DNA from: Chromatiales bacterium (ex Bugula neritina AB1)
GTDB lineage: Bacteria > Pseudomonadota > Gammaproteobacteria > Granulosicoccales > Granulosicoccaceae
NCBI GenBank assembly: GCA_001730015.1
Contig: MDLA01000097.1
Coordinates: 1-64,000 of the forward strand
DNA length: 64,000 nt
Direction: 5' to 3'
How positions within the stretch are numbered: position 1 is the stretch's first letter; the number at the start of each line of letters is the position of its first letter. Under the pieces are notes generated by a model. The model saw only the letters and a program-made list of their open reading frames with translations. It had not been told where the DNA came from and searched no databases. The position numbers and the translations under genes were made by a program. This document shows, in pieces, positions 5,585 through 10,170 of this stretch.

Positions 5585-7183
5585 CTAGCCGAATTGATTC
5601 ATCGTATTGTCTTCACCGGAAGCTTTCAGTGCCTGGGCTCCGCTGAAGTATTCTTTGTGGTCGTCACCGATATTGGATCCGGCCATATCCTGATGCTTTA
5701 CGCATGCCAGACCATCGCGGATCTCCTTGCGCTGAACATCGAGAACGTAGGCAAGCATACCCTGATCACCAAAGTAGTCTTTCGCCAGACTGTCCGTGGA
5801 CAGTGCGGCCGTGTGGTAGGTGGGCAGCGTAATCAAATGATGGAAAACACCGGCTCTGGCGGAGGCATCGGCCTGGAAAGCACGGATTTTTTCATCGGCT
5901 TCTCTGGAAAGATCAGAGTCGTCGTAGTCAACGCTCATTAGGTTGTCGCGATTATAGGCTGATACGTCTCTGCCTGCTTCCTGCCAGGCATCGAAGACCT
6001 GCTGGCGGAAGTTTAAGGTCCAGTTGAACGACGGGCTGTTGTTATAGACTAGCTTGGCATCCGGAACAATCGCTTTGACTCGATCAACCATCGCGGCAAT
6101 CTGGCCGACGTGCGGCTTTTCAGTTTCGATCCATAAGAGATCAGCACCATTTTGAAGTGCTGTTACGCAATCCAGAACGACTCGATCCTCGCCGGTGTCC
6201 GGCTTGAACTGGATAAGCCCGTTGGCGAGTCTGGATGTTTTGATCATCTTGCCTTCGCGCTGGATAACAATATCACCTGAACCGAGCTGATCAGCAGATG
6301 ATATCTCTTCGCCTGCAATAAAAGCGTTATATTGATCTGCCAGATCCCCGGGGGACTGGGAAACCGGAATTTTTTGTGTCAGACCAGCGCCGAGTGAATC
6401 AGTTCGAGCGACGATAACGCCGTTGTCTACGCCCATCTCAAGGAAGGCATAACGCAGCGCATTTATTTTTGCCAGAAAATCTTCATGAGGGACGGTAACC
6501 TTGCCGTCCTGGTGTCCGCATTGCTTGGCGTCCGAAACCTGATTCTCAATTTGCAGACAACACGCACCGGCACTGATAAGTTTTTTGGCAAGCAGATAGG
6601 TTGCCTCTTCGTTACCGAATCCGGCGTCGATATCCGCAATGATCGGAACCACGTGTGATTCGAAGTTGTCGATTTTGTCGGTGGCCGCTTTTGTTGCAAG
6701 CTCATCACCCGATGCGCGGGCTTTGTCGAGATCGGTGAATAGATGCTGAAGTTCTCTGGCATCGGCTTGCTTGAGGAATGTATAGAGTTCTTCGATCAGA
6801 GCAGGCACTGATGTTTTTTCGTGCATAGACTGATCGGGCAGGGGGCCGAACTCGGAACGCAGTGCGGCAATCATCCAGCCGGACAGATACAGATAGCGTC
6901 CGCGCGGGCTGGTAAAGTGTTTCTTAACTGAAATCATCTTTTGCTGTGCAATGAAACCGTGCCAGACACCCAGCGATTGAGTATATTTAGTTGAGTCACG
7001 GTCGTAGGCTGCCATATCTTCACGCATGATATCTGCAGTGTGTTTGGCGATATCTAAACCGGTGGCGAATCGGTTTTGCAAGCGCATGCGCGCAACGTAT
7101 TCTGCATCAATGGCGCGCCAGTGATCGCCATGCTGGTTAATAACATCTGCGCTGCTGGAGATGTGGCTGGAATAACTGCTCAT
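5585..7183 (-). CDS. aceA: Isocitrate lyase (531-residue type)
   Basis: Cleaves isocitrate to glyoxylate and succinate, the first step of the glyoxylate shunt used on acetate and fatty acids. The start is ATG at 7181-7183 with an AGGGG Shine-Dalgarno; this gives 531 residues, the length of the Pseudomonas aeruginosa-type enzyme, which it resembles nearly throughout (YTQSLG, DADAGFGN-type metal site, KQCGHQDGKV catalytic loop, C-terminal NTMNQF). An in-frame extension to 7276 reads through the A/T-rich repeat region and is rejected. The catalytic Cys loop has KQCGHQ rather than the more common KKCGH, as is normal for this subfamily. Its partner malate synthase is present next door only as a degenerate half-protein. 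Confidence 0.95.
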   Translation of the reverse strand: MSSYSSHISSSADVINQHGDHWRAIDAEYVARMRLQNRFATGLDIAKHTADIMREDMAAYDRDSTKYTQSLGVWHGFIAQQKMISVKKHFTSPRGRYLYLSGWMIAALRSEFGPLPDQSMHEKTSVPALIEELYTFLKQADARELQHLFTDLDKARASGDELATKAATDKIDNFESHVVPIIADIDAGFGNEEATYLLAKKLISAGACCLQIENQVSDAKQCGHQDGKVTVPHEDFLAKINALRYAFLEMGVDNGVIVARTDSLGAGLTQKIPVSQSPGDLADQYNAFIAGEEISSADQLGSGDIVIQREGKMIKTSRLANGLIQFKPDTGEDRVVLDCVTALQNGADLLWIETEKPHVGQIAAMVDRVKAIVPDAKLVYNNSPSFNWTLNFRQQVFDAWQEAGRDVSAYNRDNLMSVDYDDSDLSREADEKIRAFQADASARAGVFHHLITLPTYHTAALSTDSLAKDYFGDQGMLAYVLDVQRKEIRDGLACVKHQDMAGSNIGDDHKEYFSGAQALKASGEDNTMNQFG

Positions 7184-7339: not shown

Positions 7340-8548
7340 TCAGCCGGCCTGGTGGTGGGCAAATCCGTGACGATGCAATGCAGTCATAACGGGGTTGCCT
7401 GAATCAACGCCTTTTTTATTCTCATTAGCGCCTGATAAAGTGCGCGTTTTGGCAATGTGACTTTTTTTACTCGGCGGGATATCGGCAGAGCTGGCAGAAA
7501 CTGTTGGGTCAACAGTGGGGTTTTGCGCTGTGCTTCTGCTATTTGATGGCTTTCGTCTGCTTAGCTCAAGCGAAGTACCGGAATTATCAAAGCTACCGTG
7601 TTCTATAATCCATGATGCTACTGCCCGGTCAACAACGCGCTGTGGTACGGAGTTTCCATTTTGGTCGGTTATTAAATTCAGCTCATTGCGTGAGTGCTCT
7701 GGATCTACCAGAACATCATTTGTGCAGCTGATCTGGACTTCCTCGCCACACTTCAGTGTGTAGGGCGTACAACGTTTCACGCGCCGCGTAACACTTTTTC
7801 CGCGGGAGTCGTATGTGGTTTGCAGCCTGCCACGGGCTAGTTCGATAAGGTTGTTGTAGACTTCACATTTTTGCTCTACATTTTCGGTTTCCAGTGAGAG
7901 ATAAGTGGGTTCCGGAGCCTCGATCTGGATGTCATCTATATTTGAAAGGTCGCGGGAACCGCGAACGCCGTTTCGATCAAACAGAATTTCAATGTGCAAT
8001 TGCTGATGCTGCAAAAGTATGGATTCGGGTTCGTTCCGCGGGCCGTTTCGTGCAACAAACTGCGACGGGTTTTGTAAACCTACCGTGCTGCCATCGGCAA
8101 GAATCGCCATCAGGTTTTGAAAGTACACCAGGTAGGTAACTGCATCTTTGTGAGAACCTTCAGTTAAAGGGCAGGCAGCATCAAGAAATTTACGTGCATG
8201 ATCGGTAACCCGGTTGGCTCGTGCTTCGTTGAATCGGTTGCCGATTTTCAGTCCGGCGCTCTGCGGAATTGTGTCAGCATTATAGAGCGCTGAGTAGAGG
8301 CTGCCCCATCGAGAATTGAGATTGTGCAATGTGGTTCGACGGTCCAGCAGCGCAATGGGTTTCGCTGCTGCTGTTGTCTGACAACGGTTTTCTGTTTCTG
8401 ACTTCTCATTAAGCCGTTGAGCGAGATCGGCCCAGAAGCAATCGGCATCAGCCCCGGTATTCGGTAATAGTGTGTTTGTGACGAACTCAACAAATTGGGA
8501 TTTAGCGTTGAAGTTGTGAAATTTGTAGCTATTTGTAATCACGTACAT
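7340..8548 (-). CDS. Malate synthase G-like N-terminal half, predicted catalytically inactive
   Basis: From ATG 8548 the protein is 402 residues; this start is chosen because MYVITNSYKFHNFNAK then aligns with the usual GlcB N-terminus (alternative in-frame starts at 8581 and 8758 have no ribosome site). By memory of E. coli GlcB the match is clear: FVTNTLLPNTGADADCFWADL, NSRWGSLYSALYNADTIPQ, RKFLDAACPL, GLQNPSQFV and LLQHQQLHIEI all have GlcB counterparts. About 60 residues near position 50-115 of GlcB are missing. The CEDSVAAVDAEDK region is replaced by an unrelated stretch (YLSLETENVEQK), and the RSLLFIRNVGHLMT segment with the catalytic Arg has become SCTNDVLVDPEHS. Everything after about GlcB residue 370, including the catalytic Asp, is absent and replaced by a low-complexity tail. 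It is an intact reading frame, so perhaps a repurposed binding or regulatory protein. Confidence 0.75.
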   Translation of the reverse strand: MYVITNSYKFHNFNAKSQFVEFVTNTLLPNTGADADCFWADLAQRLNEKSETENRCQTTAAAKPIALLDRRTTLHNLNSRWGSLYSALYNADTIPQSAGLKIGNRFNEARANRVTDHARKFLDAACPLTEGSHKDAVTYLVYFQNLMAILADGSTVGLQNPSQFVARNGPRNEPESILLQHQQLHIEILFDRNGVRGSRDLSNIDDIQIEAPEPTYLSLETENVEQKCEVYNNLIELARGRLQTTYDSRGKSVTRRVKRCTPYTLKCGEEVQISCTNDVLVDPEHSRNELNLITDQNGNSVPQRVVDRAVASWIIEHGSFDNSGTSLELSRRKPSNSRSTAQNPTVDPTVSASSADIPPSKKSHIAKTRTLSGANENKKGVDSGNPVMTALHRHGFAHHQAG

Positions 8549-8633
8549 ACTCCGGCGATATTCGTTGACTGGTGGTGACATAAAGCGACGATGGAAATTA
8601 TATGTGCAGATCGTTATAATTTCACAATAGAAA

Positions 8634-8647
8634 TTACACAGTGTGAA
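8634..8647. promoter_or_regulatory. Imperfect dyad just upstream of the HTH regulator gene
   Basis: TTACACAGTGTGAA (arms around a central A at 8640, one mismatch) lies 8 bp before the regulator start, inside the larger TTCACA...TGTGAA pair (8621-8626, 8642-8647). The position suits autorepression. The 9-mer ATTTTACAA follows at about 8647 and recurs upstream of aceA, so a shared binding signal is possible but weakly supported. Confidence 0.4.
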
Positions 8648-8655
8648 TTTTACAA

Positions 8656-10170
8656 ATGGCTGGTAAAACGACAATGCTCCGCAATGCCCACTTTCTGGGA
8701 ACAAAAGTGCGGAATTTGCGTAAGCGAAATAAGCTGACGATGGAAGATTTGTCGGCACGCTGTATAAAGGTTAACGCCGAAGCGGCACCGTCGGTTTCTT
8801 ATCTGTCGATGATTGAGCGAGGTAAGCGAACGCCGAGCAGGCAAATGCTTGAGGTGATAGCGCAGGTGTTCCAGAAAGAGGTTAACTGGTTTCTGGACGA
8901 TGTACCGGAAGAAGAAGCAATCACTCCCGACCGCGGCAATCATGGGGGTATCAGCGGCATGGCGCTGGAACCCGGTTTTCTATTTACTAACGATATTCTG
9001 CAGATAGCGATACCGGAAATGTTGTCCCAGACTGGAACCTCGGGACGACAGTTTGCCCATTTACTGATACGAGCACATCAGGAACGTAATCAGAACCATT
9101 TTCCGGATCTGGAGCGAGCAGCAGAGGAGGTGGGTAAAAAGGAAATGCCGCTGAGTCTGGATACGTTGCAGTCTATATGCAAGCAAATGGGTTTAAAAGT
9201 CAGGTGGTTTGATAAGCTCAAAAGAGCGCAGTTGAACCGGCTGGGGGTGGGCTCGGATTTTCTCGTGAGATCATACTTTGAAGCGCCCGATACAATCCAC
9301 CTGAGTAAACAGCTTAAGTTACAACCGGTGCGTCATAAATATGATCTGGCGGTCTATATAGCGCATAAGGTTTTGCACAACGGTGATGGTGTGAAGAGTG
9401 TGATGCTGACTGGCAGGCATCAGATTGAGGAAATCCGTGAAGTAGAAAATCACATGAGCCAGTCCAGCGCTGTGGATGCGCAGGATATCATACATGCCTG
9501 GCGCGATTTCGAATGCAGTTTTTTCGCAGCAGCGTTGCTGTGCCCTAAGGTTCCATTCCGGCGGTTGCTGGAACAGCATGCTTATGAAGTCAATATAGGT
9601 AAGTATGTTGATGTATCTACGTCGATTGTTATGCGCAGAATGACAGCGGTGTCGCCATATCCGCACTGGCACTATTTCGATGCCTACCCACCCGGTAAGT
9701 TGAATGCGGTATATCGCGGTAACGGTATACCGTTACCCTGGGGCAACATGCGAATGGTACAGGATCCGTGTCAGCACTGGGCTGTGTTCCGCAAGATTGA
9801 TTCAGATATGAGTTACTCATCGGCACAGATTTCTCTGCTTGATGTAGGTTCCGAATCCAGAATTTACTGCTGTGAATCAATCAAGGTCGATGATCTGGCA
9901 GGCAACAAGCAGGTATTGTGTGCGGGCATAGACATGAACCCGGCTATAGCCGCGCAGGGTGAAGATCCGTTCTCGCTCGCAGCCGATCTAAAAAAGGCCT
10001 GCGGTGGAAGGGGAGGGTCAGCAATGATCCCCAGGTCTATAAAACGTGAATTGAATAGTATTGCGAAAATATTGAATATCGCCTGGCTTGAGCGTGGTAT
10101 TGAAAACGAGGCCAGGGTAATTTGCCCGCGCAGTGGTGCTTGTCCGCGTGACCCTAAATGCTTTCCCTGA
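8656..10170 (+). CDS. XRE-type HTH regulator with large ligand-binding region (DUF3612/ScfR-like), likely glyoxylate-shunt regulator
   Basis: A 504-residue protein. Residues about 10-75 form a lambda-repressor-like HTH (LGTKVRNLRKRNKLTMEDLSAR...SYLSMIERGKRTPSRQMLEVIA). The rest resembles the long C-terminal regions of short-chain-fatty-acid regulators such as RamB/ScfR: a degenerate IrrE-like helix (DLAVYIAHKVLH, lacking HExxH) and a C-terminal Cys cluster ICPRSGACPRDPKC. I believe it corresponds to the DUF3612 group, but cannot confirm this. It is divergent from the malate-synthase-like gene and 1.5 kb from aceA; RamB-type regulators control isocitrate lyase and malate synthase, so a role in acetate or acyl-CoA response is the natural inference. 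Confidence 0.75.
   Translation: MAGKTTMLRNAHFLGTKVRNLRKRNKLTMEDLSARCIKVNAEAAPSVSYLSMIERGKRTPSRQMLEVIAQVFQKEVNWFLDDVPEEEAITPDRGNHGGISGMALEPGFLFTNDILQIAIPEMLSQTGTSGRQFAHLLIRAHQERNQNHFPDLERAAEEVGKKEMPLSLDTLQSICKQMGLKVRWFDKLKRAQLNRLGVGSDFLVRSYFEAPDTIHLSKQLKLQPVRHKYDLAVYIAHKVLHNGDGVKSVMLTGRHQIEEIREVENHMSQSSAVDAQDIIHAWRDFECSFFAAALLCPKVPFRRLLEQHAYEVNIGKYVDVSTSIVMRRMTAVSPYPHWHYFDAYPPGKLNAVYRGNGIPLPWGNMRMVQDPCQHWAVFRKIDSDMSYSSAQISLLDVGSESRIYCCESIKVDDLAGNKQVLCAGIDMNPAIAAQGEDPFSLAADLKKACGGRGGSAMIPRSIKRELNSIAKILNIAWLERGIENEARVICPRSGACPRDPKCFP

Follow-up and report, generated by a model that had tools for sequence, protein, structure and literature searches.

Why should a bacterium that encodes a complete malate synthase G (MSG) also carry a shortened one next to its isocitrate lyase? 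The question is raised by the window analysed here, a stretch of 64,000 nucleotides from Chromatiales bacterium (ex Bugula neritina AB1), in which an uninterrupted minus-strand reading frame, running from 8548 to 7340, specifies 402 residues from its ATG. An earlier note, made from the letters alone, had likened this protein to GlcB, placed it in a glyoxylate-shunt locus with a divergent regulator and suggested that an enzyme had been turned into a binding or regulatory protein.

An MSG relative without its catalytic segments

The setting is as the note had it. Isocitrate lyase (AceA) of the PRK06498 type (NF005074, 1014.2 bits against a cut-off of 446) follows on the same strand at 5585..7183, and a regulator of XRE type, with HTH_3 and DUF3612 (PF12268) domains, is read divergently on the plus strand at 8656..10170. 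The regulator also gives a weak M78-like match, just below the cut-off for that domain; against NF038139, the RamB/ScfR equivalog, it scores 20.4 bits where the cut-off is 700, so we call it only RamB-like.

The likeness to GlcB is equally clear: NF002825 (malate synthase G) pairs residues 67-318 of the protein with positions 121-376 of its 726 (E 1.6e-54), the Pfam family MSG_insertion (PF20658) is matched at 81.4 bits against a gathering cut-off of 24.8, and the closest solved structure by sequence is an MSG, 5vfb (E 1.9e-41). Whole-protein scores are nevertheless those of a relative lying below the enzyme cut-offs, 185.7 bits against 565 for NF002825 and 167.2 against 989.15 for TIGR01345; NF006511 (PRK08951) likewise gives 131.2 bits, below its curated cut-off of 173.

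Alignment to six full-length MSGs, taken from the 60 full rows later used in a tree, allowed comparison segment by segment. The N-terminal clasp, barrel strand 1 and helix 1 (RWGSLYSALY) and the alpha/beta insertion domain are kept. The stretch of some 55 residues that joins clasp to barrel in MSG is missing, residue 67 aligning with position 121 of NF002825. The VRNVGHLM segment, which we take to hold the catalytic Arg, is replaced, as is the CEDSVAAVD segment, in whose place stands SLETENVEQK (residues 218-227; 7868..7897, minus strand), with SLE-TENVEQ opposite the MSG residues and a 4-residue deletion. Likeness to MSG degenerates beyond residue ~320, and the barrel past PEGIVDAVVTS is absent together with the C-terminal domain; at the far C-terminus, GNPVMTALHRHG pairs with MSG VPSPTAATLHALHYH, a motif remnant of residues 384-398 (7355..7399, minus strand) with a helix predicted at 386-393. 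The note's account of the losses, namely the catalytic Arg, CEDSVAAVD and the C-terminal half, therefore stands against the six MSGs, except that it overlooked both the persisting VPSPTAATLHALHYH remnant and the loss of the ~55-residue linker.

A full glcB was sought elsewhere in the genome, as the note had proposed, and found as a 737-aa MSG (G000:C117). The idea that the window holds one part of a split enzyme was rejected on the same evidence, the genome having a single PF01274 match, which lies in that full MSG on another contig.

The insertion domain is the largest part kept

The largest well-constrained part of the protein is the alpha/beta insertion domain, residues ~106-215 (7904..8233, minus strand), of which residues 106-181 (8006-8233, minus strand) make up the PF20658 match. 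An AlphaFold model built from a 22-row alignment has a mean pLDDT of 78.5 and a pTM of 0.76, with 199 of the 402 residues at pLDDT 90 or above and residues 334-383 below 50. Comparison of the model to MSG, suggested by the note, bore out the kinship: it superposes on residues 2-563 of MSG 3sb0 with Z 20.5 and rmsd 4.0 over 339 residues. The model of a 170-aa short protein from Arsukibacterium, whose mean pLDDT is only 66.7, gives Z 15.3 to MSG residues 134-331. As modelled, both proteins have the MSG_insertion fold.

All the matches listed by Foldseek and VIA-align were MSG entries, which gave no hint of kinship between the domain and any other fold. The inserted domain of M. tuberculosis MSG is described as residues 135-265, between barrel alpha1 and beta2 (PMC5207166). 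The literature searched, in the parts that were accessible, yielded no reported function for it.

Relatives and selection

The 402-aa protein finds a match in 39 of 57 related genomes, many of the matches being full MSGs. Within the order the short form is present in 24 of 48 genomes (10 long, 14 small) and absent from 24, some of which are incomplete. Two genera, the window's own and one other, have frames of 373-476 aa, and a related genus forms of 110-115 aa; in relatives the reduction goes as far as ~110-190 aa, essentially the insertion domain alone, the 110-aa ones being without any barrel. The carriers are placed in Granulosicoccaceae; for the window's genus, all named records are MAGs.

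Twenty short-form regions were fetched for synteny. Regulator, remnant and AceA occur together in 14; three regions lack AceA (L040 and two second copies, L049 and L050), and three lack the regulator (L044, L045, L046). In the genome of L040, AceA is on a separate contig and carries its own operator. Because half of the related genomes lack the short gene, and because in three of them (G002, G015, G022) regulator and AceA are direct neighbours with no gene between, the gene must be dispensable. Genomes of the Granulosicoccus group can have two copies (L049, L050, L148, L150), one with AceA and the other by the regulator without this AceA; in these the operon seems to have split.

An assembly frameshift, which the note had named as one way its reading could fail, is ruled out: orthologs of similar length recur in other assemblies, and the 110-aa kind is found in a single-contig genome (G401) that has two short forms, in frames of 128 and 120 aa. 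The note had also called for dN/dS. Values were obtained by the NG86 method for 22 pairs, 19 of them between short forms, and in 15 of these 19 they lie between 0.051 and 0.259, which indicates purifying selection and rules out a neutral relic; in the other four dS is saturated. Constraint on the short gene is less than on its neighbour, as judged from the pair G010 and G009, where dN/dS is 0.014 for AceA and 0.084 for the short gene. In the comparison of the window with its relative G013, one of the four saturated pairs (pN 0.276, pS 0.752), whole-protein identity is 57% for the short protein, 91% for the regulator and 94% for AceA. The insertion domain is 75% identical (pN 0.14, pS 0.82), strand 1/helix 1 79%, and residues 386-402, over 14 aligned codons, 86%; the clasp is 38%, residues 276-330 42% and the tail, 331-385, 35%. 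By these figures it is the insertion domain, strand 1/helix 1 and the C-terminal motif that are most strongly constrained.

Were the gene a pseudogene left by the operon's former malate synthase and decaying slowly, this would fit the graded reduction, the rapid divergence of what is left of clasp and barrel (38-42% identity to G013) and the absence of the gene from half of the related genomes. The idea hardly deserves credence, since the frame is open over the domain in the copies read (one match, in G639, crosses a single stop), dN/dS is 0.05-0.26, and operators are conserved at copies on other contigs. With orthologs occupying the same slot, between the RamB-like regulator and AceA, and dN/dS in this range, the 402-aa protein can be put down neither to misassembly nor to pseudogene decay.

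Origins of the short forms

In Psychromonas the slot is occupied by a full 718-aa MSG at both loci found, giving the order RamB-like regulator, MSG, AceA; in another genome (G278) a full MSG adjoins the same type of AceA, with the regulator at the end of another contig. At all seven Arsukibacterium loci a protein of 170-174 aa stands beside the RamB-like regulator, and the stretch fetched does not include this AceA. The full MSG in this slot, together with the Arsukibacterium loci, makes it probable that the malate synthase native to the operon was cut down at its original site. At one of the seven, in Arsukibacterium perlucidum (L091), the regulator match is only a 62-aa frame, beside an intact short gene, and the RamB-like regulator may be broken there.

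A second set of short forms was met in family f161 of another order. DUF3612 is present in 122 of that order's 246 genomes, and in 6 of 369 genomes of the window's class, its own included; 29 genomes of f161 have ORFs related to the insertion domain, in frames of 115-262 aa. Left out of the 29 are two genomes with frames below 300 aa whose matches lie at the very end of a contig (G448, G462), and two above it, G420 (332 aa, near a contig end) and G597 (476 aa). By contig coordinates, 14 of the 29 shorts belong to the regulator's operon or adjoin it; the other 15 are on a different contig. Five f161 operons (L188, L197, L241, L266, L267) hold short protein, AceA and full MSG together.

A tree was computed from 115 insertion-domain columns and 111 rows, comprising sets of 10, 11, 4 and 26 shorts and 60 full MSGs; a few genes were fetched twice, and four of the seven Arsukibacterium loci and part of the small forms are represented. 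Support is by SH-aLRT only and, with so few columns, 39 of 104 inner branches stay open. The shorts of the window's lineage and of Arsukibacterium group with the full MSGs of Psychromonas and G278 (SH-aLRT 98), those of f161 with the full MSG of an operon in which the RamB-type regulator faces AceA and MSG (L190; SH-aLRT 98), and a topology uniting all shorts in one clade is rejected (p-AU 8.6e-5). These groupings and the rejection of one clade place the origins, by sequence, at two or more, the nearest full MSGs lying in RamB-type operons; on the tree, then, reduction to the short form arose at least twice. A single origin of the first set (clade I) was not rejected (p-AU 0.67), so multiple reductions within clade I are not proven.

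A triple-repeat operator accompanies the regulator and the short genes

The divergent promoter region of the window contains, at 8617..8654 on the plus strand, three direct repeats of the AAATTTCACA type with a period of 14, which adjoin the regulator's start codon at 8656. The consensus, AAATTTCACA-N4-AAATTTCACA-NTGTN-AATTTCACA, was recognised by reading promoters, and is matched at 8621-8654 with no mismatches, one of two sites in the genome. The second (G000:C67:18249-18282, L272) precedes a gene whose product reads as a member of the ketopantoate reductase family (NTLILGASYGSLLG...); genes of the same reading, named from sequence, also adjoin sites at L292, L275, L291, L279, L287 and L295, and L290, L294 and L298 have an additional operator in the vicinity of what reads as a transhydrogenase PntA subunit gene.

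The fetched loci that contain the regulator, whole or in part, number 82, some places being represented twice. Sixty-five fall under the regulator-start rule, with 25-32 of 32 consensus positions; of the 17 others, 16 have their highest-scoring site anywhere in the fetched sequence at the regulator's start (25-31 of 32), making 81 of 82; the last, L157, holds only the gene's end. Given a site at 81 of 82 loci, the RamB-like regulator presumably binds this operator. Among 60 promoter regions fetched from the DUF3612-bearing genomes counted above, 58 have a malate synthase or isocitrate lyase gene adjoining the regulator, the remaining two being stretches of just 2.1 and 2.9 kb.

Short genes that have left the regulator carry the operator too. 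Thirteen of the 15 unlinked f161 shorts were read, and 12 have 29-31 of 32 positions just upstream, in reverse orientation, where shuffled sequences reached maxima of 17-22 over 20 shuffles each; the thirteenth (L249) runs into a contig end. Pattern scanning of 24 of the 29 carrier genomes gave one to three sites each and none for a reversed control, and a scanned site lies just upstream of 14 of the 15 shorts on other contigs, the exception being this same gene (in G645). A scan of 40 relatives found a site in 18 and no control sites; the window's lineage itself supplies no operator evidence beyond the shared divergent promoter. A half-site of another kind, TTTGCAAA, which we take to be that of RamB in C. 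glutamicum, was rejected as a candidate, near matches occurring upstream of just two of 21 short genes scanned.

Possible targets of the short protein

The reduction, the purifying selection and the operator on short genes are read directly from comparison of sequences. The note's broader claim, of an enzyme turned to binding or regulation, survives in so far as the protein is under selection, non-catalytic and tied to the glyoxylate shunt; the sensing of glyoxylate or acetyl-CoA that it offered as an example finds no support, the substrate-binding segments having been lost and the 110-aa relatives having no barrel. To the note can be added that the best-kept large part is the insertion domain and that such reductions are met in several lineages, with an operator in common. 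Retention of this domain by selection in several lineages under the same control switch suggests that it probably has a regulatory job of its own.

A metabolite sensor, for glyoxylate or acetyl-CoA for example, could use the retained barrel pieces, and strand 1/helix 1 (RWGSLY..ALY) and the barrel-region C-terminal motif are indeed well conserved in the 402-aa form; with CEDSVAAVD, the catalytic-Arg segment, the later barrel and the C-terminal domain all gone, and the barrel missing from the 110-aa relatives, we judge such a sensor improbable. Less probable still is a complement of full-length MSG, as a spare insertion domain or hetero-oligomer subunit. A full MSG is encoded in the window's genome and in many carriers, yet shorts are present in G522 (98% complete) and in two genomes of Arsukibacterium, in each of which the sole malate synthase barrel lies in a frame of 544-583 aa, the size of malate synthase A, so a full MSG is not a required partner. 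In one genome that is 87% complete (G009) no malate synthase barrel was found.

The short protein might instead travel with aceA as a partner of isocitrate lyase, whether scaffold, chaperone or allosteric subunit. Its gene lies directly upstream of aceA in the window's lineage, and shorts adjoin aceA in several f161 loci. Shorts also occur beside two types of isocitrate lyase only ~30% identical to each other, which weakens the idea of AceA control, and the fetched stretches of the 13 unlinked f161 shorts read contain no isocitrate lyase match; we regard this partnership as unlikely, if less so than a sensor. The annotated neighbours of three unlinked short genes had no shared function that could be seen by eye.

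The constant companion of the carriers examined is the regulator with its operator, for which reason we favour the RamB-like regulator as target. It is present in all 29 f161 short carriers against 122 of 246 genomes of that order, counts that are uncorrected for phylogeny. In P. denitrificans a divergent RamB binds two boxes upstream of the malate synthase-icl operon, which it activates and may repress, and binds CoA esters (PMC10370305); such a regulator of malate synthase-icl makes a protein modulator of the RamB-like one plausible. Against binding to the regulator stand the faster evolution of the short protein than of both its neighbours and its absence from many relatives.

Our best reading, tentatively held, is that the short protein is a non-catalytic accessory of the glyoxylate-shunt regulon which acts by binding, most likely to the RamB-like regulator. 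The gene would be the catalytically dead relic of an MSG that once stood in an operon of divergent RamB-like regulator, glcB and aceA, such as is intact in Psychromonas. Catalysis would have been given up in a genome with a full MSG at another locus, and selection would have retained the alpha/beta insertion domain with some flanking parts or, in relatives, that domain alone. By binding, the protein could serve as feedback or co-regulator of the glyoxylate-shunt switch, with the RamB-like regulator as the likeliest target and isocitrate lyase second. A bolder extension, which we think possible though rather doubtful, is that the insertion domain of RamB-operon malate synthases is in general a regulatory module binding the RamB-like factor; full enzymes would then be trigger enzymes, and the module would have been freed in several lineages as a feedback co-regulator under the regulator's operator.

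A natural dissection seems to have been performed: the domain alone has been retained by selection, with at least two origins, under the regulator's operator, and some of the genomes that keep it have no MSG. It thereby becomes directly testable whether the MSG insertion domain has a second, non-catalytic role. The results also suggest that metabolic models should not treat as enzymes those proteins of 110-400 aa that are annotated 'malate synthase'.

Comparison with known systems

Searches of the literature under PRK08951, DUF3612 and PF20658 found no report, and those on truncated malate synthase, domains of unknown function, pseudoenzymes and RamB none of this kind in the portions of the sources seen. 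The nearest known system is malate synthase G itself (GlcB; TIGR01345, NF002825; 1d8c, 5vfb), which shares with the 402-aa protein the clasp, barrel strand 1/helix 1 and the insertion domain, whereas the protein is without the catalytic segments, most of the barrel and the C-terminal domain. NF006511 (PRK08951), a profile of 190 positions named 'malate synthase', has the stand-alone MSG insertion domain in common with it. The one Arsukibacterium short tested (L092) passes this profile (174.4 bits against 173), and Arsukibacterium shares regulator and operator with the window; the 402-aa protein differs in falling below the cut-off and in keeping clasp and barrel pieces. PRK08951 is thus the annotated form of the Arsukibacterium type. 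Its name is misleading, the Arsukibacterium protein that passes being a 170-aa insertion domain without catalytic parts.

RamB of Paracoccus denitrificans and the window's regulator are alike in being divergent, RamB-type and adjoining glyoxylate-cycle genes; the neighbour there is malate synthase, and here a dead remnant. The window's regulator differs also in having DUF3612 and in scoring below NF038139. In trigger enzymes and pseudoenzyme regulators an enzyme scaffold is reused for regulation after catalysis has been lost. That scheme, an enzyme scaffold in regulation after loss of catalysis, would be shared by the short protein, with the difference that the part best kept here is the insertion domain, not the active-site domain.
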